Below are positions 2,595-31,196 of a stretch of DNA of 31,196 bases, one piece after another. The DNA is from a virus: IMG/VR virus record IMGVR_UViG_3300023215_000494, positions 1 through 31,196 of that record. One strand, written 5' to 3'. Made by a program: the position numbers and the translations under genes. The notes under the pieces were generated by a model. The model saw nothing but the letters and a program-made list of their open reading frames with translations. It had not been told where the DNA came from and did no database searches. Within the stretch, counting starts at the first letter, position 1. The number at the start of each line of letters is the position of its first letter.

Positions 2595-4754
2595 ATGACC
2601 GATAAAATACCACCATTTTCAGACGCCATATCGAACCCCGAAGCAGTAGCCACAAGGCTGAAAGAACTGAATAAGAAACCAGCGGCCCAACGCCGTGCTG
2701 GGCTGAAGAAACTATTCCTCGCCATCATCGACCACTCAAGGGGGCAAGCGTCCGTTGGCCCCCAGATACAAACGGTGGAGAAGGCGGCGGCGATGATGGA
2801 CAACGCCACGTGCAAAACCTTCAATCAACTCGTCCACCTGTTAAGCGCCGACCTCATGCGGGACGTTATCAAAACTGTTCTGGTGACCGGAACAAATCGC
2901 CTGTCCGCGATGGCTTGTCTGAGGGACCAGTTGATACTGATGGAAAGGGCCCTGCTGAACCCCGACGAATGCGTCAAGGCATCACGTAAGCCGTATGGCC
3001 CACTCATCGGGTATAACCGTAAAATACAACAACAGGCCACGAAGCTGACCACACCCAGCCCGAAACACTTGCCGGATTACAACCTCTGTCTGACAGGCAG
3101 GGCAGGGATCATCCCAACCAAGGGCAACCCCGGAACCACAAAGGTGGACACCGATATGAGTGACGACAACACCGAACTCGGGTTTGGTCTGGACCACATG
3201 ACCACCCTCGCACTGACCTTGGCCTACCTCCGGGCGAAGGAAGACGACATCGGCTTCCAGCATGACGGCGTAGAGGCCATCAAGGCAGAGAGCGAAGATG
3301 CCGTGCGGATGATTGGCGAGAAATTCAAGCTGACCGCCAAGCAGAGGCTTTCGTTATCATCCAGCGTCGAACTCACCACATCGTCCAATGCTGACCCCGA
3401 AGGATACGATGGGGGCTCCGCCATACACGAGATTCTAAAGAAGCAGGGCCTCTTGGGCGAAGGCGCACAGACAGAGGAGAAAACGGCAGACACCGCCGTA
3501 ACCGTTGCCGAACCCGTCACCGTGGACGCCAACGTCAGAGCGGCAATCAATACGATGGTCAAGCACGGGCTGGGCGACACCGCCACCGCAGAGGCTGGGT
3601 TTACGGACATTGAGGAAACCCTGACATCGATCAAGCAACTTCGCCTAAACGCCAGTGCCTTCGAGGAAGAGATCAAGTACCTCAAGGGGCGCACCTTCAC
3701 GGCACCCGTGCAGATATCGGGCAAGGCAGAAGTCGATGGAGATACCCTCACCTATGAGGTGGTACAGCGAAATGCCATGAAGTTGTTTAAGAACCCACGT
3801 ACCGGCAGGGCCATCAAGCAACTCAACTTCAACATACCGACGCTGGTATGGAAGAACGACAAGGGTGCTGTAACGCAACACCCGATGGTGCCGATGCCGG
3901 TTGATCACTACCAATTCCGGGCCACTCACCTGATCAAGTTCCTGACGGCCTTCATCATGGGCAAGAATGTGTGGTGCCACGGCCATACTGGCACCGGGAA
4001 AACGACACTGCCGGAACAGGTGGCCGCAGTCATTCAGTTCCCTGTCTTCCCGATCAACTTGGACGGCAACATTGAACGCGCTGATCTGGTTGGGCAGATG
4101 AACATCGTAAATGACGGTGGGACCAGCATAACCCAGTTCAAAGAAGGCATTCTGCCAAGGGCGATGGTTCAGCCCTGCTTCCTTGTCTTGGACGAGATCG
4201 ACGTAGGCAAGCCGGACGTAATGTTCGTAATCCAGCGAGCCACCGAGGGCAAGGGCCTACTGCTTACGGAAGACGGTGGCCGCTTGGTCAAGCCCAACCC
4301 GCTGTTCCGCTTCGTTGCCACCGCCAATTCTAGGGGGCAGGGAGACGAGTACGGCGTGTATGCGGGGGTCAGGCCGATGAACGGCGCGTTGCTCAACAGG
4401 TTCCCGATCTTCATCGAAGTCGATTACATGACGAAAGAGGAAGAGAGCGCCTTCCTCAAGAAGACCTACGGTATCGCAGACGAAGTGATCGACAACATAA
4501 CGACCTTCGCGGGGATGTGCAGAAAGGCATTCTCTGAAGGCGAGACAACGGTGCCGGTATCCCCACGTGACACGATGGCGATGTGTGAGATGTATAACTT
4601 CTTCGAGGGGATATTTCCTACCAAGGCACAGGCAATGGAGTTCGCGGTGACGACCAGCGTAATAGACAGAGCCCCGATGGATAACCGCCAGCGTATCGTA
4701 GAGTTGGCGGATCGTTGCTTCGCAAGCTGCAAGTTCACGGCGACAATATCTTAA
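2595..4754 (+). CDS. MoxR/CobS-type AAA+ ATPase
   Basis: The 719-residue product has an unknown N-terminal region (about 1-430) and a C-terminal AAA+ ATPase of the MoxR/CobS/NorQ group. Visible motifs are Walker A GHTGTGKT (463-470), Walker B LVLDEID with D533/E534, sensor-1-like ATANS around N578, and an arginine finger in LLNRF (R602). Family members form hexameric rings that remodel a target protein together with a VWA-domain partner, and such a partner is encoded 94 bases downstream. The N-terminal extension is far longer than in a typical 300-residue MoxR protein and may bind the substrate. The ribosome site is weak (GAAAGG), so translation may depend on the leader upstream. The target is unknown. 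Confidence 0.92.
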   Translation: MTDKIPPFSDAISNPEAVATRLKELNKKPAAQRRAGLKKLFLAIIDHSRGQASVGPQIQTVEKAAAMMDNATCKTFNQLVHLLSADLMRDVIKTVLVTGTNRLSAMACLRDQLILMERALLNPDECVKASRKPYGPLIGYNRKIQQQATKLTTPSPKHLPDYNLCLTGRAGIIPTKGNPGTTKVDTDMSDDNTELGFGLDHMTTLALTLAYLRAKEDDIGFQHDGVEAIKAESEDAVRMIGEKFKLTAKQRLSLSSSVELTTSSNADPEGYDGGSAIHEILKKQGLLGEGAQTEEKTADTAVTVAEPVTVDANVRAAINTMVKHGLGDTATAEAGFTDIEETLTSIKQLRLNASAFEEEIKYLKGRTFTAPVQISGKAEVDGDTLTYEVVQRNAMKLFKNPRTGRAIKQLNFNIPTLVWKNDKGAVTQHPMVPMPVDHYQFRATHLIKFLTAFIMGKNVWCHGHTGTGKTTLPEQVAAVIQFPVFPINLDGNIERADLVGQMNIVNDGGTSITQFKEGILPRAMVQPCFLVLDEIDVGKPDVMFVIQRATEGKGLLLTEDGGRLVKPNPLFRFVATANSRGQGDEYGVYAGVRPMNGALLNRFPIFIEVDYMTKEEESAFLKKTYGIADEVIDNITTFAGMCRKAFSEGETTVPVSPRDTMAMCEMYNFFEGIFPTKAQAMEFAVTTSVIDRAPMDNRQRIVELADRCFASCKFTATIS

Positions 4755-4779
4755 CCACGATCAACATAGGAGAAAGCAA

Positions 4780-4836
4780 ATGGAATTCGCATTGGGAACG
4801 GCAATAATCATATTGCTCACGTGGCTGTTAACCTAA
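4780..4836 (+). CDS. 18-residue membrane micropeptide
   Basis: A strong TAGGAGA ribosome site at 4768-4774 precedes ATG 4780. The ORF encodes MEFALGTAIIILLTWLLT and stops at 4836. Apart from Glu2 the peptide is entirely hydrophobic or small, long enough for one membrane helix. It fills the gap between the MoxR and VWA genes, and the VWA ribosome site begins at its stop codon. Function unknown; it could anchor or regulate the ATPase pair at the membrane. The ribosome site and composition are the only evidence that it is made. Confidence 0.55.
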   Translation: MEFALGTAIIILLTWLLT

Positions 4837-4847
4837 CGGAGAATGTA

Positions 4848-6989
4848 ATGGCAAACACCTTTTACCTACCGAAGAACGATCCCGATCTTGACCGGGATTA
4901 CATCAGGGGCAGTGAGTATATGGATGGCACCCGCACCGCCATCAGAACCATATCATCCGACTTCGATACCAAAGTTGTGTTCGAGGGCGAGGGTGCGGCG
5001 ACCAACGGCGACTACGTGATCATGCCCATGCAAGATCAGGACGCCATGATGACGCACAGACAAGTGAATGTCGGGCGTGGCTACGCCAACCACGAAAGTC
5101 TTCACAAACTACTGACCGACTTCGTGGTCGGTGCGAAATGGCTAACCGAAATGGCGAAGACGGGCCGTCACTTCACCGCCAGCATGGGACAGGCGATTGA
5201 GGACATCCGCATAGAGAGTGGTGGATGTAAGTTGTACCCCGGTATGCCGAAGAGCATCGACAAGACCGCCGAAGAGGTGTGCCGCCACTTCGCGGAGAAC
5301 CACAAGAGCGACATCGAAGGCGGCATACTGAACGATCCTTGGAAAATGTTGCCACTTGCGGTGACATGGATAGGCCGCATCAAGCTGGGCTATCCCAGTG
5401 AGGTGATACGCACGGCATTCGATCAGTTGGGCGAGGATGTTAAGCGACGGGCCACGCTCGTGGCTGACGCAGTGCTGAACGGCATCGAACATGGTGTCGA
5501 GGGGGTAGGCCAAGTCAATAAGAGCCTCGCCCATAAGGGATTCGCCCAAGGCATCAAACTTGCCGAGCGGGTAGCCGACGAACTCGCCAAGGAATTACCG
5601 CCGGAGAAGCCTGACGGCCCCGGAAAGGGCAAGACTAAGGGAACCGGCGCGGATACCGGCACGAGGAAGGGCGAAGGCACAGGCGAGGATGGTGATGACG
5701 CCGACGGCGACGGGCCCGGCGACGGCGGCAGTGGGGATCAAGACAAGGGCGATGGCGACGACGCTGACGACGCCGTTGAGAAGACCCAACACGGTGAGAA
5801 CGAGGCATCCGAGGGCGGCAAGGCTTCTAAGACAAAGGGCGATGGCAGTGACACAATCGGTCACGGTGCTTCGGAAGCAGACAGGGAAACGGCGCTGACG
5901 CCGGAGCCTACGCCAATGGACCACGATCTCAATATCGTGAAGGAACTGTTGTCGAACCATACGATGTCCAAGGAAACAGGCAGGGCGGTGAAGCAGACCG
6001 TCCACAAAGTACCGTTCACCACGGCTGACGATGTGATTGGTATACCGAAACACGCACTGAAGAACGCGGCTCATTACCGCAAGGAATACCACGCCGCCAA
6101 GAAGGTTCTTGGTAGCAGGGTTGCGACGATGAGGCGCAAGCTTGAGAGGGCGCTGATCGCCAAGGTTACATGTGACTACGAGACGGGGATCAGTGGACGA
6201 TTGAACGTCCGAAGCAAGGCCCCGAATATCATTATGGGCTCCGACCACATCTACCGCAGACGCATAGAGGGTGACGAGATCGATACGGCGGTTACCCTAC
6301 TCGTTGATTGTAGCGGGAGTATGCAGGGCGAGCCCATGAAACTTGCTGGGCATTCGGCGATTGCGCTGGCCGAGGCGCTTGAGAGCGGCAACGTGCCTTA
6401 CGAGGTAATCGGGCACACCACGATGTCCTTGTCTGGCGAAAGCTGGGAAAGATTAAGGAACATCAAGACGGTCTACGATGAAGAGGGCAAGTGTATCGCC
6501 ATGACCGGATACGCAAGGGAGTGCGCCATATACATGCCGGTATTCAAGCCCTTCGATAAGGCACTGCGCCAGTGTTACCACACGATGGGGATGATCCCCA
6601 CGAGTGCCGATGGTGCGAATGCAGATGCCTGTGCCTTGCGAGAGGCGGGTGATCGACTGCTCAAGCGGCATGAATCCAAGAAGGTTCTGCTGTTGCTGGC
6701 CGATGGATATCCAGCATGGTCAACGTCCTTCAACACTAAGGACAGGGACGCCTACACGAGGGATGCGGTGGCCAACCTTGAGGCACGGGGAATTACGTGC
6801 GTCGGGATTGGGATTGCGTCCGACTGCGTGAAAAGATACTTCCCGAAATGGGTTATCATCAACAGCATAGACGACCTGTCCAAGACCGTGCTGGACCAGA
6901 TCGCCAAGATGATTATCGGGGAACGCTTCACCGTAGATAATGCCAGCCTAATAGGGGGTGGCTATGGCTCACGAGCTAAAGCCTCGTAG
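4848..6989 (+). CDS. VWA-domain protein with N-terminal HExxH motif (CobT-like MoxR partner)
   Basis: This has 713 residues from ATG 4848 (GGAG at 4838-4841); an in-frame ATG at 4821 lies inside the micropeptide gene and lacks a site. The N-terminal domain holds HESLH (82-86) and EDIRIE (118-123), a zincin-like arrangement. Residues about 245-360 form a disordered linker rich in Gly, Asp and Lys. The C-terminal von Willebrand A domain has the metal-site motif DCSGS (487-491), a 'GANADACAL' segment and a late Asp619 in ADGYP, as in CobT and related MoxR partners. In that group the VWA protein binds the AAA+ ring and targets it. Peptidase activity is untested and might have been lost. Confidence 0.88.
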   Translation: MANTFYLPKNDPDLDRDYIRGSEYMDGTRTAIRTISSDFDTKVVFEGEGAATNGDYVIMPMQDQDAMMTHRQVNVGRGYANHESLHKLLTDFVVGAKWLTEMAKTGRHFTASMGQAIEDIRIESGGCKLYPGMPKSIDKTAEEVCRHFAENHKSDIEGGILNDPWKMLPLAVTWIGRIKLGYPSEVIRTAFDQLGEDVKRRATLVADAVLNGIEHGVEGVGQVNKSLAHKGFAQGIKLAERVADELAKELPPEKPDGPGKGKTKGTGADTGTRKGEGTGEDGDDADGDGPGDGGSGDQDKGDGDDADDAVEKTQHGENEASEGGKASKTKGDGSDTIGHGASEADRETALTPEPTPMDHDLNIVKELLSNHTMSKETGRAVKQTVHKVPFTTADDVIGIPKHALKNAAHYRKEYHAAKKVLGSRVATMRRKLERALIAKVTCDYETGISGRLNVRSKAPNIIMGSDHIYRRRIEGDEIDTAVTLLVDCSGSMQGEPMKLAGHSAIALAEALESGNVPYEVIGHTTMSLSGESWERLRNIKTVYDEEGKCIAMTGYARECAIYMPVFKPFDKALRQCYHTMGMIPTSADGANADACALREAGDRLLKRHESKKVLLLLADGYPAWSTSFNTKDRDAYTRDAVANLEARGITCVGIGIASDCVKRYFPKWVIINSIDDLSKTVLDQIAKMIIGERFTVDNASLIGGGYGSRAKAS

Positions 6990-22289: not shown

Positions 22290-22739
22290 GTGAAGATCAA
22301 TGACGCTGGGTTGGAGATCATTAAGCACTACGAGGGTTACTCTTCGTCTGTCTATCGTTGTCCAGCCTCGCGTCTGACGATAGGTTGGGGCTCGACATGG
22401 GACCATAACGGCGATCCCATACGGGAAGACCAGCCGGATATAGACGAGGAATACGCTGAAAAATTATTGCTGCGGGAAATTCACCATACTGAACACGCAA
22501 TTGCTAGGCTGGTTAAGGTTGGGATGACCGCGAATTCGTACTCGTCTCTTACTTCTTTTATATACAATGTCGGCAGCGGAAACTTTCAGTCCAGTACGTT
22601 GCGGATGAAGCTGAACCGTGGAAATTATTACGGTGCCGCCGACGAATTTCCTAAGTGGAGGAGGGGTGGTGGTCGTATTCTGAGGGGTCTAGTTAGACGA
22701 AGGAAGAGCGAGCGAGACCTATTTCTCTTAGACCTCTAG
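22290..22739 (+). CDS. GH24 lysozyme-type endolysin
   Basis: This has 149 residues from GTG 22290. The glycoside hydrolase 24 triad is present as Glu15 (HYEGY), Cys24 and Thr30, in the E-8-C-5-T spacing of P21-type endolysins rather than T4's E-8-D-5-T. LTIGWGS, SSLTSFIYNVGSGNF and a basic RGGGRILRGLVRRRKSE tail are typical. It cleaves peptidoglycan. There is no signal or SAR sequence, so it needs the holin. Its last 12 bases overlap the convergent thioesterase gene. Confidence 0.93.
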   Translation: MKINDAGLEIIKHYEGYSSSVYRCPASRLTIGWGSTWDHNGDPIREDQPDIDEEYAEKLLLREIHHTEHAIARLVKVGMTANSYSSLTSFIYNVGSGNFQSSTLRMKLNRGNYYGAADEFPKWRRGGGRILRGLVRRRKSERDLFLLDL

Positions 22740-23102
22740 GTCGCGAAGGGCATCCCTTAGGGTATCGGGTAGTTCAGTTGGCTTACCGTCGCGGGTGAAT
22801 ACGTTTACGCAAGTAGCGTGGGCCGCTTCCTCCCCCCTAACGAACACCTCGTAGTCTGTAGTAACTGACTTCCCGCCAATTTTTATGACCTTCGAGAAGA
22901 TCATCACGTTGCTGGGGTATGTAATCTCTGTCTTAAAGTCCATATCGATATGAACCATAACGTGATCCCATCGGCTACCTAGCTGTGCATACAATATAGC
23001 GTCATCGAATAATTTAACCCGCTCATGGGATACCCAGGCGGCTATGGCCAGATGGTTCGCGTGACCCTGCGAGTCGATGTCTGTGAACCTGACTTCAACC
23101 AT
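22728..23102 (-). CDS. Hotdog-fold acyl-CoA thioesterase (4HBT/YbgC type)
   Basis: This has 124 residues from ATG 23102, two bases after the preceding TAG. VRFTDIDSQGHANHLAIAAW carries the 4-hydroxybenzoyl-CoA thioesterase signature with a catalytic-type Asp10 and a GHxN turn. Length and the following strands (DHVMVHIDMDFKTEITYPSNV, FSKVIKIGGKSV) match single-domain hotdog enzymes that hydrolyse acyl-CoA. This is unusual for phage cargo. It lies between the endolysin and a lipoprotein; it might alter host lipids or be a recently acquired metabolic gene. The substrate is unknown. Confidence 0.82.
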   Translation of the reverse strand: MVEVRFTDIDSQGHANHLAIAAWVSHERVKLFDDAILYAQLGSRWDHVMVHIDMDFKTEITYPSNVMIFSKVIKIGGKSVTTDYEVFVRGEEAAHATCVNVFTRDGKPTELPDTLRDALRDLEV

Positions 23103-23104
23103 TT

Positions 23105-23617
23105 CTATAACGTGTTTGACGGATTATAAACCGGTCTCCCGCTCATCAGTTGTCTGGCGAATTGGGGTAGGATTTGGAACACGGACACTATGCACTTACC
23201 CTTAGCCAGAACCATTAACCACACCTTGTCAGTCTCACGGTAGGCAATGAATACTGTGTCTGCGTCAACGCTAGTTATGGGCGGAGAGGCGTTATGCGCG
23301 GCCACGGTCTGCATGGCATCGCCATCGGTAAGAAGCATGGTGGTGGCGTTTGGATGACGTTCCTTGATTTCAGCCATAATGAAGTCCAGATGGCGGTTGA
23401 CTTGACCGCATTCGGTACTCCATGTCGCTATTTGCTGATGGATGGTTAGCGGCGGTGGTTTTAAGAGAACCGCCTTGCCTGAGGGCGTGCTGGTGACACA
23501 CGCAGACACCACCAGGGCAAGGAGGACGGAAGCAAGGAACCTACCGCCTTTTCTTGGTGTTTCCCTGAGGTAACCCAACCCAGTTCGTTTTAGTAATCCA
23601 GCCACCAGAATTTCCAC
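23105..23617 (-). CDS. Lipoprotein, unknown function
   Basis: This has up to 170 residues from GTG 23617 (AGAGGAAG upstream), overlapping the end of the polyvalent gene by 77 bases; a later start is possible. A basic stretch (RETPRKGG) leads into FLASVLLALVVSAC, a lipobox with Cys40. The mature part has PPPLTIHQQIATWSTECGQV and a later Cys in AKGKCIV, so a disulfide is possible. It resembles no named family for me. Positions near lysis genes suggest a spanin-like or outer-membrane role, but coiled-coil content is low. Confidence 0.6.
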   Translation of the reverse strand: MEILVAGLLKRTGLGYLRETPRKGGRFLASVLLALVVSACVTSTPSGKAVLLKPPPLTIHQQIATWSTECGQVNRHLDFIMAEIKERHPNATTMLLTDGDAMQTVAAHNASPPITSVDADTVFIAYRETDKVWLMVLAKGKCIVSVFQILPQFARQLMSGRPVYNPSNTL

Positions 23618-26600
23618 TTCTACTTCCTCTAGTTTTAGCCTCTCCTCCAGCGAATTCAGCCGCGCTCTCTTGGAAACTCTTTATACCACCAAGGACGGGT
23701 ATCCGTCTTCCTACCGATCTGCCGAAATCTCGTGCCTTGCTGGGGTTGTCGATGTCCATCGCGGCGGAAACGCCCTTGAGAGCATCAACTCCGATACCGA
23801 CGGATGGTCCGGCGACGGCAGACAAGACCCGTATCTGGCCGTAGGAGCCATTGTCTGCCTGGGCTGCGGAGTTAAACGCCATCTCCGCTACCAGACCAAG
23901 GCCACCCATGGCCAATAGGCCTTCTACCCACCAACCGAGGAACTCATTTGGTGTGAAGCCGAGGGTGGCGAGGTTGTCTTCGTTCATAAACTGGCTGTTT
24001 TCGATGTCGCCGCCGAGGGCTTTGGCGATATCACCAACAAATGTTTTGTCTAGCCTACGTTCACGCAGCTTTCTTTCGGTGCCGGACTTGCCGCCACGGC
24101 CCAGTATCAGGTCTTTGGCGGCGTTGGCACCCATGCCGAAACCCGCGCCAGCCGTGAGGAGTAGGGCTAACGGGGCAACGTTTCCGTGTCCAGCTTCTTT
24201 TATGACATCCTTTGACATACGTCCCATCATTATCGGGAATGATTTAAGCTGGAATGCCAGGCCGCCCCACGGTGTCTGTGCCCACATGGGAACATCGTTG
24301 GGGTCAGGCGTGAAGATGGTCTCGTTTACGAAACGCATGATGGCGTAGCGTACTTTATCGTCGTTTACGTGGGATCGGATATCGTCCAGACGAGGGCCAC
24401 CGGCTTCGCCATACTCCTCTAGACCATACCTCTTCAGGAATCGCATGGCCTTTTTGTGGCGGAAATTTCCACCTCTGCCGTTAGAGACTTGCCGTCTGGC
24501 CGCGTCAGCCTCTGCCTTGAGGGCATTGAAGCCTACGAGTGCGGAGACTTCCCTTTGTAGGTTGGTCCATGGGGTAAGTAGCGTTGCGTTGAAGAAGGCA
24601 TTGGTAAATCGTTGGGAACCATCACCAGCCATGTAGGTCATGTTATCGTGGATCAGGTTTTCAATGCCAACGCCGATATCGCGTGCTGCTTGCTTGTATG
24701 AGGGGTCACCCATCCATCGTTGCGCCCAGCCCTTGCCCCAGGCTCCAAGCTTACCGCTTCTTACCAGCGGCAAGACAACGTCGGGGAAGGAAGTCAGGGT
24801 TGTCCAGGACAGCAGGGAAACCGAGTTGAATGTTTTGATCTTCCTGGTCGTGGAATAAGCTCTCTCCGAACCGAGTGGTTTACGGTTCAGGACGTTCAGA
24901 TACCTTACCATCCAATCAGTAGTGTCCTTGCTGGCGGGAACCTCGAAGTCAGCGAGGGCGTTCACGATGGCCTTCACCCGGATTTTATATTGGTCATATT
25001 GACCTTTGTTTAGAGTGGTTACATCCATCACCTCTAGGAGAAGGTTAATGGCATCCTGTTTATTCTTTGTCTTAGACTGCTTGGTCGAGCCGAGCATGTC
25101 GGAGACGCGGACTAACAAAGTGCCAGCATCATCCTCACTTAGGGCCAGCCGGGGAATAATCTCGTCTGTTATTTGGGCTTCGACGCCCATTTCCTTACGG
25201 CCAACACCGATTGTCTTATTTCTTAGTAAGATGTCTGCGGCCCCACGTAAGCCATGCTCGGAGACATGGATGTATGCGTCTGCGCCGTGGTTGTTGGTGC
25301 CGAACTCTTTCGCCATGTTTATGGTTCTAGTGGTTTTGTCGTAGTACCTAGACAAGATACCCTCTAGGTCAGTCACCATGTATTCGCCCATTTCAGGGAG
25401 TTCGTCTGGGGTAAGCTTCAGGAACCGCTGCATGAATGGGTTGGATGCGCTAGACATACGCCTGTGGAGAACGTTGTCTACGTCAATTCGACCATCCGTA
25501 TCGATCATCCTTTTAATGATCTCGGTTGATATGCGGTTGGCTTCCCTGGCGTCCATGTTGATACCGCTCGCTCTGGCTTCCCGCATGAAATGGGCGACCA
25601 GCACCCTGTTGAACTTGCCTGGGTTGGCCTGGATAGCACCCGTATCCCAAACCTGGGGGACGTAGTATTTCTGGTTGAGTTTTGCCGCAACGTCTCCGAT
25701 TGGAATGCCGAGTTCCATCATGGTATTGAGTTCGTCCTTAAAGGACTTGGCAATATCCATGGCCACTATGCGCTCTCGTGCGTTCAGTGTCGTTAAGTCC
25801 TGTGCCCGCATTGCACGGATAATTCTTTCGTGACTAGCGGGTACGGCTTGCGTGCCGAGTTTCTTGTTGACGGGATAGATGAGGCCTTGGTTCTTTAGGA
25901 GCCAGCGTTTGCCGGAGCCAACAGAATCAGGGAGCGACCTAAGGGCGCTGATGAGGGGAGCAACCTTCTTCGCAAGATCGGAGCTTTGTTTCTGAAACAG
26001 GCCAGCCCCGCCTTCTGGCTTTACGATGTTGCCGAACCAATGGGCACCGACTCTGCGTAGGTGGACGGAGTTCTCTCGTATCCAATTGCCGCCTTTCCCT
26101 TGGCCACTGTGGCGTTGGACTGCTGCGAAATCGTCCATTGTGGGCTCTTCGCGGCGAAGTGTTCGTCTGAGGAAGCCCTGTAATGCGTCAGGAACGCCGA
26201 GTCGCTGTGCTTCGGCACCTAGGCCTACCATGTCGCCTGGGTTAATGTTTCGTCCAAGATCGATCTGATCCATCATAACCTTGCCAGCCAGGGACGTATC
26301 GTCCATGCCGCCAATCATGTCTGCGAACATGTTGGGTAGGTCGCTGTCGAATACGTCGGCGTCAACGTGCTTAACGTGGGCTGGGTTGAATACGACTATG
26401 GCTTCAACCGCTGATCCATTCACGGGATCAAGGTCGGTGACCCTAAAGCTATCGTAGCCCAAGTCCCGCATGAAGCTGGTTAGGATGGTCTTGGCCTCTT
26501 CTTCTGAGGTTCCCCCGCGTTTGATGCTATCGATAATTATTTCGAAGAGATCGTCACCAGCAAAGAAGCCACCCGTCCGCAGTTCTTCGATGAGATTTTT

Positions 26601-29600
26601 GCCCACGTGTTGGGTGAACATTCTCTTGTCTGCCATGTCGGTGATAAGCCAGGTGATGTCGTTGTGGTTGCCCTTGATGGAGTAGAAGGTGTTGGCGTCG
26701 AAATTAAACGTATCTTCCATCCGTACCAGGAGCGGTAGAACTTTTGGCTGTCTTTGGATACCGGTTGTGTCTGCGAAGAGCGTCCATAAGACTTTCTCTT
26801 CCTGGTATAGGGCCGCCAATTTCTTTTGTACCTTGAAGAGGTTACTGGCTGGGCTGTCTACGACCTCATCAATGGACCCATCGGCTATGCTCGCTGCCCG
26901 CCTTTTGGTTGTCTCGCGGTAGTGGATGCCGTCTAGGTAGGACAAGAGGTCTGTAATTTTTATGCGGTTAGCGGCGATCTTGTCTGCGTACTCGTAGCCT
27001 ATGCCCTTCCTGTTCGAGCTAAGGTTGGCGTCGTCTACCATCTGTCTCATAGAGGTTCGATGGCCCGCTTCGCTATAATCGATAGCCAGTGAATTGGCTT
27101 TGGTGAGATATATTCCTTCGCCGAACAGGGCTTCAGGGCCTGAAGGCTCTAGGATTACATCTGGGTTGGTGGCGCGGCTGAACTTACCGCCGTTTGGCGT
27201 GCCGTGGTAGTACACGTAGTTCATAAGGTCTTCTGTTTCGTTTACACCCACGAATTCTCGTGCGTATACCTCGCGGGCAGGGCTGTAGTTTCCTATGGTC
27301 TCCTGTGCGTACTTTGGGGCGACCTCGTTCATCATGGAGAAGCTGCCGGTGTTCCGTACCGCGCTTCTAACGGGTGTGTTTACGGCAGATTTGTTGGCAA
27401 GCATATCGCCACCAAAGGTCAGGTAACGGTATTGCTGACGAAGTGTTTTGTTTCCCAGGAGACCGTTGACGAAGTAGCTGACCTGTTCGATTAGCTCATC
27501 GACCATGGTTTCGAGGCGGCCCTTCAGCTTAACCTTGCCGAAGTTGTCTGTCTTGCTGACCCGGTTACCGAGGTAGTTGGCGAAACCATCCACGAACCAT
27601 TCTTCCGCCAGCCTTTCTTGGACAGCCTGGGGCGGTAGCCCGTCCAGGGCACCGTAAGCCGAGCTACGCTTTGTGACCTCTAGGGCTCGTGGGTCTCCTA
27701 GGGTTACTGCTTCCTTGTACATGCCGTTGATGATCTGGCGTTGCTCCAGGGAGAAGTTGCCACGTACCAGGAGGTGGCCGATTTCGTGTATGACCGTGTA
27801 TTCCTGGCCCTTCGTGTTTGGACGGAGCCCTATGAAGTCCGCGCCACCGTCGCCCTTCTTGAGGGCCATGCCCATTTTACGCATGGTCTTGCGAAGCTGG
27901 TTGAATTCCGGGCCATCCTGGGCGTGCCGGAAGACACCGAAGCTACCGTCCTGGGCTTCTGTTCCGAATAGGCGCTGAACATCGTCGAGGCTCATAACGT
28001 TGGCCCTGTTCACCGCGTTTTGCTGGGTCTTGCCCATCAGGTTCATCATACGGTAGGCCAGAAGCCTTGAGTTTGATTCGACCTTCTTGTCTCGGTGGGT
28101 AATCTTTCTTAATATTTCCTTAACTTCTGCGGTAGCCCTGTTAGGAATGCCGTTTTCTTCGCCCGCACCCCTTGTCTGGGCGATCTCTACATCCATTGCG
28201 CGGTTGACCATGCTGGATTTGAATGAGATGTCTGGGTTTTCTTGCCAAACCCGCTTCAGGCCAGCCGCTGCGAGGTTCATCTCGTCTTCTTTGCCACGGA
28301 TGAAGGCGCTTACGATTGCATGTTGGAAGTCTTCGGGGGTTTCGGCTCGTTTTCCACCAACTATTAGCTCGGTCCCGGCGGGATAATCCAGTTCCGCTAT
28401 CTCCGGGGCGGTCAAAAGCTTCCTGTTTAGTGCAATGTTTAGGTCGCGGACACGTGCGTTGGGCGAATCGGTGCCTGAGGACAGTATCTCAGCTACGATT
28501 TCGGGCATCGACATCTCGTTGACAGACGAAAACTCGACGCCGGTTGGGTTGTCTGTGGCAACCGTTGTCTTTCCGCCAATGTCGGCGAAGATACCGTCGG
28601 CCTTGGCTACGAGTTTGGCGACGATGTCGTCGGCACCCTCTATTAATGCTTTGCGCTTGGCAAGAGCCCGGCGTTTGTGGAACTCGGATTGACGGTTCTG
28701 CGTGGCTACCATTTCGCCGTCTGGGCTAACGCGGATACCCTCACCAATCTTCGTTTTAGGTGTGTTGCGGCCAACCTGTTTACGCATATCCACCTGTACT
28801 TCGTGGATAATGTTCAGTACGCGGTTGGCTAGGGTAGTCAACCTATCGCTTACACCTTGGTCTGTCTTGTTGAGGGCCAGGTCTGCTATGGGATCATTGT
28901 ATCCCAGACCGTCGATGTCTGGTATCCCGTCGGAATCGCCGCTTAACAGGCTGTCGGCCAGGGCCTCTATTTCCTGTTGGCGGGCCAACTCGCTTTCGCC
29001 TGTTCGTCTGGTTGCCACGGCTTCCAGGGCTTCAGGTGTCAGGGTTCCAGCATAGCTTGGGTCTGGATTTTCAGCCTGGAAGTCCTGAACTTCTCTCATC
29101 GCCCTGAGAAGTTTGTTTCTAACATGGAACGAGTTCATGTACTGGAAGACTTCTCGTCCCTGGTCGTCTTCGCCTGTCTTTTTCCCCCGGTCCAATAGGC
29201 CCACTCGTGTTTTCGCCTGGCCCTTGGCGTTGTAGTATTTCTTGGAACCGTCCTTACCCTTATACGCAATGCTTTCCTGTACGAATGAATTTACCTCGGC
29301 CACGCCGGACGCTGTTACCTTCCGGCCACCAAGGGCTTCTCTTACCTTTTCGGGGTCTCCGTCGGCGAGAGCCCTTTCGATGTTGTTCTTAATGGTTTCC
29401 CAGTTAACAAGTTTGTCAGCGAGGAACTTGACGCGCCCAGGCTTTGAGCCAGAGGTGTTGCCCGCTATCTTTTTCTGCATGTCTAGGTACTTGTTAGCGT
29501 TGAAGTCCCTGTCGGGCAAGATGCGCTCGAACAGCGGGATTAGTTTAGGGTCTACGTTGTTGTCTGCCAGGAAGAAACGTTCCATGACGCTGCGGACTTT

Positions 29601-31196
29601 GACGGCAATTTTTTCCCATAGGGACATAAGTTCTGTTGGTGTCCCGGCCTTGCCGCGAGAGATTGCGAATTGGGAGAACTGCTGTGCGAAGAACTCGGCG
29701 GGACTATGTAGTTCGTTGTCTGCCGCACCCGGAAGACGCTTGGTGAGGCTTCCGATGTCCACGCCTTCGTCGGTGATATACCTTCCCATGGCTTCCCAGA
29801 ACATGCTCTTGTCTTTGGGTGTGAGGATGTTGGCGTAGGCCCAATGACCTATTTCGTGGATGACTTTCTGGAAGTCCGGTGTGTTGCTGGTTCCGTCGCC
29901 CGCCTCACCGATGCCGATGGTGTTGGCCGTGTCGGCGCTACGGGTGGATTGGGGCATGAAGGCGTAGCCAGTTGGGTCATTCCTGAACCGTGGCAGTGCG
30001 CTGTCTGCGCCACTAATGTTGCGGAGGACAGACATCACCGCGTTTAATTCACCGAGCGGACGCGCCCGCATGATCATGGCCAATTGCTGCATGGATGCAT
30101 TGCGGCTGGCGTTGTTCCATTTGATTCCATGAGGGGCGTTGTAGCTGATGATGTCGTTAAGAAGCTCCATGTAGCTGATGTAGCCCTTGTAGTCGTCTGG
30201 GGTTTTGAAGTGCGGGGAACTCCAGGCCATATTCTCGTAGGCCTGAAGTTCCTCTACGACATCCCCCAGATACTTAAATTTGCCCTGTAGGCTTTTGCCA
30301 GCAAAGGTGGGTAGGGTGGCTTGGTCGATCTCAATGTTTGCTGCCTGGGCGAAGCTGATTGGTCGCGTGCCGGGATCAACAATGTCTGGATCGTCCTTGA
30401 GCTTGCCTACTTTCTCTACGTTCTGTGGTTTCTTGACGGGCGCGTAATCGCCGCCGTCTATTGGTGAGAATGATGCGTCTCTGGCCCTGCCGCGTAGGCT
30501 TGGATCGCTCCAGCCAACGACGAAGCTTTCGCCCTTCTGTTTGCCAAGGATGGCCTTGACGGGGTTGTTCTCGCCAAGCTGCTTGGGTGATGCGTGCCTG
30601 AACTTGCCCTTATATTTACCGCTAGTGATGGCCAGGGCGAATGACATTCCGTCGGGGATATCATCGCCGAATTCGGACATGGCCATATGGACAGCCCTAT
30701 TCTCTGTATCGGCGCTCAGTTCCGCTTCGAGTACCGAGGCTTCGTCTACCGGTGTGGTGTCGGGCTCTTCGACGGCGTTTTTATAGGTGTTGGTGTTCTT
30801 GTGGTTCGGGTTGTGGAAGGCGCGTCCAGAGCCAGCCGGGGCCAGTGCAGAGGGTTGGAGGTGGCCTTGTTCCAGGGCCAGCTTAATCCTTTTGTTGAAT
30901 ATCTTTATTAACTCTCGTTTGATCTCGCTTTCGTATTCGACGACGACATCGTAATCCAGGTCGTCTGTCCTTATGACGAAATCGTCGCCATCTTTGGTTA
31001 CTTTGCCGACGGTTTTGCCCAGGAACTTGATTGTCTTGTTGGGGCCCTTGCCGGTTATTTTGAAGTGGTTGTTCAGGTCGATTTCCACGCCATCGGCTTC
31101 GATGACCATGGGCTTGGCTTTGGCGCGGGGCTTGGTGGCGGGCGCGGCGTTGGCCAGCATTTCGAAACGCTTCTGGATTTCAGTTAGTTCTCTTGT
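23541..31196 (-). CDS. Giant polyvalent virion-type protein with two zincin-like motifs and an ADP-ribosyltransferase-like domain (5' end outside window)
   Basis: The frame is open from the right edge to a TAG at 23541, giving at least 2551 residues; the Met at 31160 has no ribosome site and 12 more codons precede it. Numbers here count from that Met. A first HEIGH (435-439) is followed by Glu489 in PAEFF; a second HEIGH (1125-1129) is followed by EEWF (1186-1189). About 1310-1605 is ART-like: HGTP (His1319), FGEGIYLT and VEAIVVFNP with Glu1586. The C-terminal 230 residues have hydrophobic segments near 2328-2350, 2408-2428 and 2440-2462, and a basic tail ends TKKRR. Such multi-enzyme proteins (large polyvalent proteins) are thought to be injected with the DNA. 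Confidence 0.88.
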   Translation of the reverse strand, partial: TRELTEIQKRFEMLANAAPATKPRAKAKPMVIEADGVEIDLNNHFKITGKGPNKTIKFLGKTVGKVTKDGDDFVIRTDDLDYDVVVEYESEIKRELIKIFNKRIKLALEQGHLQPSALAPAGSGRAFHNPNHKNTNTYKNAVEEPDTTPVDEASVLEAELSADTENRAVHMAMSEFGDDIPDGMSFALAITSGKYKGKFRHASPKQLGENNPVKAILGKQKGESFVVGWSDPSLRGRARDASFSPIDGGDYAPVKKPQNVEKVGKLKDDPDIVDPGTRPISFAQAANIEIDQATLPTFAGKSLQGKFKYLGDVVEELQAYENMAWSSPHFKTPDDYKGYISYMELLNDIISYNAPHGIKWNNASRNASMQQLAMIMRARPLGELNAVMSVLRNISGADSALPRFRNDPTGYAFMPQSTRSADTANTIGIGEAGDGTSNTPDFQKVIHEIGHWAYANILTPKDKSMFWEAMGRYITDEGVDIGSLTKRLPGAADNELHSPAEFFAQQFSQFAISRGKAGTPTELMSLWEKIAVKVRSVMERFFLADNNVDPKLIPLFERILPDRDFNANKYLDMQKKIAGNTSGSKPGRVKFLADKLVNWETIKNNIERALADGDPEKVREALGGRKVTASGVAEVNSFVQESIAYKGKDGSKKYYNAKGQAKTRVGLLDRGKKTGEDDQGREVFQYMNSFHVRNKLLRAMREVQDFQAENPDPSYAGTLTPEALEAVATRRTGESELARQQEIEALADSLLSGDSDGIPDIDGLGYNDPIADLALNKTDQGVSDRLTTLANRVLNIIHEVQVDMRKQVGRNTPKTKIGEGIRVSPDGEMVATQNRQSEFHKRRALAKRKALIEGADDIVAKLVAKADGIFADIGGKTTVATDNPTGVEFSSVNEMSMPEIVAEILSSGTDSPNARVRDLNIALNRKLLTAPEIAELDYPAGTELIVGGKRAETPEDFQHAIVSAFIRGKEDEMNLAAAGLKRVWQENPDISFKSSMVNRAMDVEIAQTRGAGEENGIPNRATAEVKEILRKITHRDKKVESNSRLLAYRMMNLMGKTQQNAVNRANVMSLDDVQRLFGTEAQDGSFGVFRHAQDGPEFNQLRKTMRKMGMALKKGDGGADFIGLRPNTKGQEYTVIHEIGHLLVRGNFSLEQRQIINGMYKEAVTLGDPRALEVTKRSSAYGALDGLPPQAVQERLAEEWFVDGFANYLGNRVSKTDNFGKVKLKGRLETMVDELIEQVSYFVNGLLGNKTLRQQYRYLTFGGDMLANKSAVNTPVRSAVRNTGSFSMMNEVAPKYAQETIGNYSPAREVYAREFVGVNETEDLMNYVYYHGTPNGGKFSRATNPDVILEPSGPEALFGEGIYLTKANSLAIDYSEAGHRTSMRQMVDDANLSSNRKGIGYEYADKIAANRIKITDLLSYLDGIHYRETTKRRAASIADGSIDEVVDSPASNLFKVQKKLAALYQEEKVLWTLFADTTGIQRQPKVLPLLVRMEDTFNFDANTFYSIKGNHNDITWLITDMADKRMFTQHVGKNLIEELRTGGFFAGDDLFEIIIDSIKRGGTSEEEAKTILTSFMRDLGYDSFRVTDLDPVNGSAVEAIVVFNPAHVKHVDADVFDSDLPNMFADMIGGMDDTSLAGKVMMDQIDLGRNINPGDMVGLGAEAQRLGVPDALQGFLRRTLRREEPTMDDFAAVQRHSGQGKGGNWIRENSVHLRRVGAHWFGNIVKPEGGAGLFQKQSSDLAKKVAPLISALRSLPDSVGSGKRWLLKNQGLIYPVNKKLGTQAVPASHERIIRAMRAQDLTTLNARERIVAMDIAKSFKDELNTMMELGIPIGDVAAKLNQKYYVPQVWDTGAIQANPGKFNRVLVAHFMREARASGINMDAREANRISTEIIKRMIDTDGRIDVDNVLHRRMSSASNPFMQRFLKLTPDELPEMGEYMVTDLEGILSRYYDKTTRTINMAKEFGTNNHGADAYIHVSEHGLRGAADILLRNKTIGVGRKEMGVEAQITDEIIPRLALSEDDAGTLLVRVSDMLGSTKQSKTKNKQDAINLLLEVMDVTTLNKGQYDQYKIRVKAIVNALADFEVPASKDTTDWMVRYLNVLNRKPLGSERAYSTTRKIKTFNSVSLLSWTTLTSFPDVVLPLVRSGKLGAWGKGWAQRWMGDPSYKQAARDIGVGIENLIHDNMTYMAGDGSQRFTNAFFNATLLTPWTNLQREVSALVGFNALKAEADAARRQVSNGRGGNFRHKKAMRFLKRYGLEEYGEAGGPRLDDIRSHVNDDKVRYAIMRFVNETIFTPDPNDVPMWAQTPWGGLAFQLKSFPIMMGRMSKDVIKEAGHGNVAPLALLLTAGAGFGMGANAAKDLILGRGGKSGTERKLRERRLDKTFVGDIAKALGGDIENSQFMNEDNLATLGFTPNEFLGWWVEGLLAMGGLGLVAEMAFNSAAQADNGSYGQIRVLSAVAGPSVGIGVDALKGVSAAMDIDNPSKARDFGRSVGRRIPVLGGIKSFQESAAEFAGGEAKTRGSRSGNSGGWITKTNWVGLPQGNTKKRR

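Follow-up and report, generated by a model that had tools for sequence, protein, structure and literature searches.

In hundreds of phages, CobS/CobT-like genes carry a vitamin B12 label; cobS and cobT are present in almost all phages of the CRP-810 type, and the authors reporting this describe their function as uncertain (PMC11288001). Another study of the widespread phage pair named it CobST, called the peptidase label of cobT mistaken and proposed that the pair hijacks the CobN of the host (PMC8651126). For group 2.2 jumbo phages, Iyer and colleagues described a MoxR ATPase paired with a vWA protein that bears a metallopeptidase domain at its N terminus, and they proposed a function in virion assembly (PMC7824862); CobT is not mentioned in that account. 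Here we describe such a gene pair in IMG/VR virus record IMGVR_UViG_3300023215_000494 (positions 1–31,196, a partial genome of 31.2 kb, referred to as the window), which joins two readings that make no reference to one another: one in which the peptidase annotation of cobT is a mistake (PMC8651126), and one of a MoxR-vWA pair that includes a metallopeptidase (PMC7824862).

The window encodes an integrase, a prim-pol, a RusA-like resolvase, Sak4-like and Cas4-domain proteins, a deoxynucleotide kinase and a phage lysozyme. Its gene layout largely matches that of Roseobacter phage CRP-810 (OR671924), and we therefore read the window as a CRP-810-type marine phage. Judged by sequence, the two proteins of the pair are homologues of the cobaltochelatase subunits CobS and CobT. 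The phage cobST pair has already been published (PMC11288001), an identity that a preliminary description of this DNA, made from its letters, had missed. The HExxH motif, named only in the title of that description, proved to be its informative part. Both labels in the literature can be reconciled, in that the phage protein is homologous to CobT and, as far as its motifs tell, retains a peptidase site.

The zinc-site motif of the viral CobT-like protein

The CobT-like protein (positions 4848–6989, plus strand) contains 713 residues, counted here and below from the ATG at 4848. This ATG, located behind a GGAGA sequence, is a likelier start than the GTG at 4821, where the mechanically predicted open reading frame begins. 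The protein matches the Pfam families CobT (PF06213, 36.1 bits with a cut-off of 26.1) and CobT_C (PF11775, 89.8 bits with a cut-off of 21). The metal-ion-dependent adhesion site (MIDAS) motif of the VWA domain, DCSGS, lies in the CobT_C domain (residues 487–491, positions 6306–6320, plus strand), where the preliminary description had located it; D487, S489 and S491 are invariant.

The amino-terminal domain (N-domain, residues 1–256, positions 4848–5615, plus strand) was modelled by AlphaFold2 with a pLDDT of 94.2. It contains the HExxH motif HESLH (residues 82–86, positions 5091–5105, plus strand) on a helix formed by residues 70–89. An ED(x3)E motif (E118, D119 and E123, positions 5199–5216, plus strand), predicted to supply the third zinc ligand, is found 32 residues past the second histidine on the next helix, made up of residues 108–129. 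The structural matches of the domain are weak (Z 4–5.6) and led by gluzincins, with DUF885, M48-like, M32 and M1 proteins on top and thermolysin lower, so that for the model a gluzincin-type fold is suggestive. When the domain was compared with viral predicted structures using Foldseek, mainly other CobT/VWA proteins were retrieved. A weak profile match to AcrIIA26 (PDB entry 9zq6_B, E 0.016) covers the ED..E helix without the HExxH and is probably due to chance.

HExxH and ED(x3)E are both present in all 76 IMG/VR homologues spanning this region. When 47 non-redundant viral sequences are aligned, nine positions of the N-domain are invariant (G78, H82, E83, H86, E118, D119, E123, G132 and T173), six of them belonging to the HExxH/ED(x3)E motif. 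The viral sample was drawn with patterns containing either the first histidine of HExxH or the MIDAS motif, which makes it slightly biased towards that histidine; the glutamate and the second histidine lie outside the patterns. Annotated records, the window included, keep HExxH in 8 of 11 cases. Among cellular CobTs, on the other hand, the motif was found in none of 135 (80 from genome contigs, 5 plasmid-borne and 50 drawn widely from Alphaproteobacteria). At its three positions these proteins mostly have serine or alanine, a hydrophobic residue, and arginine or lysine, while the position of E118 remains a glutamate. A profile search of the PDB, which is independent of our own alignment, gives the same picture: the solved cellular CobT aligns over these positions but has lost the motif.

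In a tree calculated without the motif columns, a single branch with full support divides all 24 cellular CobTs from all 41 viral CobTs, which argues that the viral proteins are an old separate family and not recent host genes. A recent host origin of phage CobT is thus unsupported by the tree, in which SynM01, ICP2 and Gordonia sit on long branches and are placed with little certainty. The HExxH state requires four changes on this tree, the root of which cannot be placed; the question of a protease ancestor hangs on that root. Since loss of a catalytic motif is easier than its gain, decay in cells would be the simpler interpretation. Cellular CobT would be a sister lineage in which the peptidase site is missing, probably through decay. 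The conserved viral site also points to a relationship of bacterial CobT to a protease.

The CobS-like ATPase and the surroundings of the pair

The partner protein (positions 2595–4754, plus strand; 719 residues) matches PHROG 249 (E 1.3e-59) and the solved CobS (E 4e-45), and midasin is also among its sequence matches. In a Foldseek comparison its model resembles CbbQ2 (E 3.5e-14) and NorQ (E 1.2e-12) best, with TMt values of 0.83–0.85; AAA+ folds dominate the structure matches of the whole model. Its Walker A motif, GHTGTGKT (residues 463–470, positions 3981–4004, plus strand), and its Walker B residues D533 and E534 (positions 4191–4196, plus strand) are where the preliminary description had placed them. 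G463, G466, G468, K469, T470, D533 and E534 are invariant in 29 viral homologues, as are N578, R602 and R658, which complete the Walker A/B, sensor and arginine-finger set. By its motifs and predicted fold, the protein is a MoxR-type AAA+ ATPase; these data, together with the CobT_C domain of its neighbour, confirm the MoxR-type ATPase and VWA pair in a phage that had been described. The window ATPase is matched by 618 phage records.

Homology to the solved CobS begins around residue 437, and homology to PHROG 249 around residue 348. The preceding residues (1–436, positions 2595–3902, plus strand) form a mostly helical, poorly conserved and lineage-specific extension. An extension of about 430 residues had been noted before and is real, but it is a trait of this phage clade rather than unusual: full-length ATPases of related marine phages mostly have about 530–780 residues. 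Those of more distant phages have about 360–415, the Gordonia protein has 519 and a cellular CobS 331.

Close relatives with 64–71% identity, together with the consistent adjacency of CobS and CobT, indicate more than a chance arrangement. In annotated phage and plasmid records, the CobS and CobT genes are neighbours with at most one small gene between them, and when the IMG/VR contigs are included, 82 loci contain both in tandem, in either order. One further locus (L047) was flagged merely for overlapping open frames; there, too, the order is S then T. In all eight loci lacking an ATPase match, the CobT frame begins at most 0.8 kb from a contig end. The preliminary description had proposed that related phages carrying the two genes far apart or singly would speak against a common module; since they are neighbours wherever both are visible, the adjacency it had reported stands.

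Between the two genes of the window, a hydrophobic 18-residue micropeptide (MEFALGTAIIILLTWLLT, positions 4780–4836, plus strand) is encoded behind a strong AGGAG ribosome site. Hydrophobic open reading frames of 22–24 residues with strong ribosome sites occupy the same gap in L016, L017, L018 and L028. Comparison of L016 with L018 reveals 6 synonymous and 8 non-synonymous differences in 23 codons, indicating no strong constraint. The micropeptide is absent where the ATPase and VWA genes abut. It is probably a real membrane peptide, as the preliminary description had it, but being confined to the closest relatives it does not count as a fixed third member of the module.

In other phages the pair is often found near replication or repair genes: DNA polymerase III alpha, a DNA polymerase with a primase/helicase, a sliding clamp with a clamp loader, or a primase with DnaB helicase. 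A scan of bacterial genomes with a CRP-810-type CobT profile confirmed no relative, and no prophage hosts were obtained by that route. Elsewhere in the window, a giant open reading frame of 2539 residues (positions 23541–31160, minus strand) contains no Pfam domain and resembles virion structural proteins only faintly. A small 4HBT-type thioesterase gene (positions 22728–23102, minus strand), unusual cargo for a phage, adjoins the phage lysozyme gene.

Possible roles of the pair

We consider it probable, if not strongly so, that the pair is an ATP-driven VWA-metallopeptidase that remodels a protein early in infection. Judging from its relatives NorQ, CbbQ and CobS, the CobS-like ATPase would assemble into a ring, on which the CobT-like VWA domain would dock via its MIDAS, by analogy with NorQ-NorD and CobS-CobT. 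The N-domain, in which the motif and its conservation are observed, would bind zinc, act as a gluzincin-type metallopeptidase and cut a protein opened by the ATPase ring. The position of the genes suggests that the target may be a host or phage protein acted on early, near the DNA replication genes, and not the virion. Set against the roles offered in the preliminary description, an action on a host or phage protein early in infection would fit best. Gene position speaks least for virion assembly, and for defence a search with PADLOC gave no model match for either window protein.

Several points weigh against this proposal. Zinc binding and cleavage by the N-domain are predicted from its motif and conservation, and the low structural scores (no significant match was found when the domain was compared with the PDB using Foldseek) leave the gluzincin fold assignment only suggestive. 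Three lineages of phages or phage-plasmids (L010, L013 and L014) retain the ATPase-VWA pair but have lost HExxH, so proteolysis is not required everywhere. The host lineage discussed below is that of CRP-810, the closest cultured relative, and not necessarily that of the window phage.

The three lineages lacking HExxH also bear on an unlikely alternative, in which the pair is a remodelling chaperone that refolds or disassembles a target complex without proteolysis, comparable to RavA-ViaA or NorQ-NorD, and the zinc of the HExxH site is structural or recognises the substrate. These lineages, like all cells with a CobT, have kept the ATPase-VWA pair with a degenerate motif, which indicates that the scaffold is useful without the site. 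The catalytic glutamate E83, however, is as invariant as both histidines, and a purely structural zinc site needs no such glutamate. The same three lineages serve as a natural control when a catalytic role of HExxH is considered. Slightly less likely still is a machine for virion assembly or processing, in which the pair would take part in the maturation of head or tail proteins; the same three-part domain logic was interpreted in this way in the group 2.2 jumbo phages (PMC7824862). Proteolysis is common in phage maturation, but the pair is located among early and replication genes and not among structural genes in several unrelated phages, and in the window the giant putative structural protein is encoded on the other strand. 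The neighbouring genes thus suggest early infection over virion assembly, position alone being weak evidence.

Least probable, in our view, is that the genes are auxiliary metabolic genes for cobalamin, with phage CobST and host CobN together raising vitamin B12 levels and hence nucleotide synthesis (PMC8651126; implied in PMC11288001). The homology to CobS and CobT is clear, and cobaltochelatase uses just such a CobS/CobT pair. CobN-type genes also occur in some hosts of CobST phages. Yet the window proteins miss the NCBIfam equivalog cut-offs by a wide margin, scoring 166.3 against 558.55 bits for CobS (TIGR01650) and 101.8 against 759.05 bits for CobT (TIGR01651); the Sinorhizobium proteins, used as a control, pass with 651 and 1166 bits. 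CobN (PF02514) was not found in the window (itself a partial genome) or in 14 further records carrying the pair, of which four are virus contigs and ten are named phage or plasmid records. The preliminary description is supported as to the absence of a CobN target, but its statement that the window has no cobalt chelatase has to be amended: homologues of both small subunits, CobS and CobT, are encoded, and only the large subunit CobN is missing. In the CHUG lineage, to which the host of CRP-810 belongs, cobG and cbiX are lacking and vitamin B12 is not synthesised de novo, which weakens the idea for CRP-810. The protease motif, moreover, is invariant in the viral proteins and missing from the CobT of cobaltochelatase, and viral CobT does not derive from recent host genes. 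The retention in phage CobT of a zinc-protease site lost in bacteria argues that the pair would be a remodelling protease rather than a vitamin enzyme. By our own reading, PMC11288001 describes cobT by the role of an unrelated namesake, the dimethylbenzimidazole phosphoribosyltransferase that activates the lower-ligand base; the same confusion of names is present in some phage records, for example H93 and OV696614.

The vitamin B12 label may also be questioned in cells. In one draw of 115 alphaproteobacterial genomes, 90 contained CobT and 45 had a match to CobN/Mg-chelatase, 44 of these within the 90, so that no CobN or Mg-chelatase large subunit was found in 46 of the 90 CobT-bearing genomes. 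As the CobN model is also named for Mg-chelatase, true CobN is possibly rarer still. In these Alphaproteobacteria, cellular CobST therefore often cannot be a partner in cobaltochelatase. The Caulobacter control genome has a CobT match and no CobN match, and a Bartonella is another example. In Caulobacter, disruption of cobT is reported to affect fitness under chelator stress, and the same study lists cobT among the genes that sustain fitness when copper is the stress (PMC12004947); the transposon sequencing (Tn-seq) literature searched contained nothing direct on cobS or cobT. Cellular CobT would have kept the remodelling scaffold, which in some bacteria may serve cobalt insertion together with CobN. 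More tentatively, as a possibility we rate well below the remodelling peptidase itself, phage CobST in general would be virus-specific, AAA+-driven VWA-metalloproteases that cut a host or phage protein early in infection, with bacterial CobT a related pseudo-protease. If this is true, the vitamin B12 label misleads on hundreds of phage genomes.

Comparison with known systems

The MoxR-type ATPase core of the window protein is shared with NorQ-NorD, CbbQ-CbbO and midasin, the targets of which are known. We know of no HExxH domain in the partner proteins of these three systems. The jumbo-phage pair (ASV44729.1 and ASV44728.2; PMC7824862, published in 2021) has the same three-part set of domains as the window, a likeness drawn from its description only. 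The CobS and CobT of the aerobic cobaltochelatase of Alphaproteobacteria are homologous to the window pair over the ATPase, the VWA domain and the N-domain; unlike the window proteins, they lack the HExxH (in all 135 CobTs), form a separate clan, have a shorter ATPase and work with CobN. The CobS and CobT of CRP-810-type phages (OR671924; PMC11288001) have the same gene order, domains, HExxH motif and surrounding layout as the window at about 30% identity, and differ from it in having no micropeptide gap between the genes. With the gluzincins (M32 carboxypeptidases, M48-like proteins, M1 and thermolysin) the N-domain shares the HExxH and the downstream glutamate on the next helix, with weak structural similarity. 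It differs from them in having no membership at the sequence level and in being joined to a VWA domain and paired with an AAA+ ATPase.

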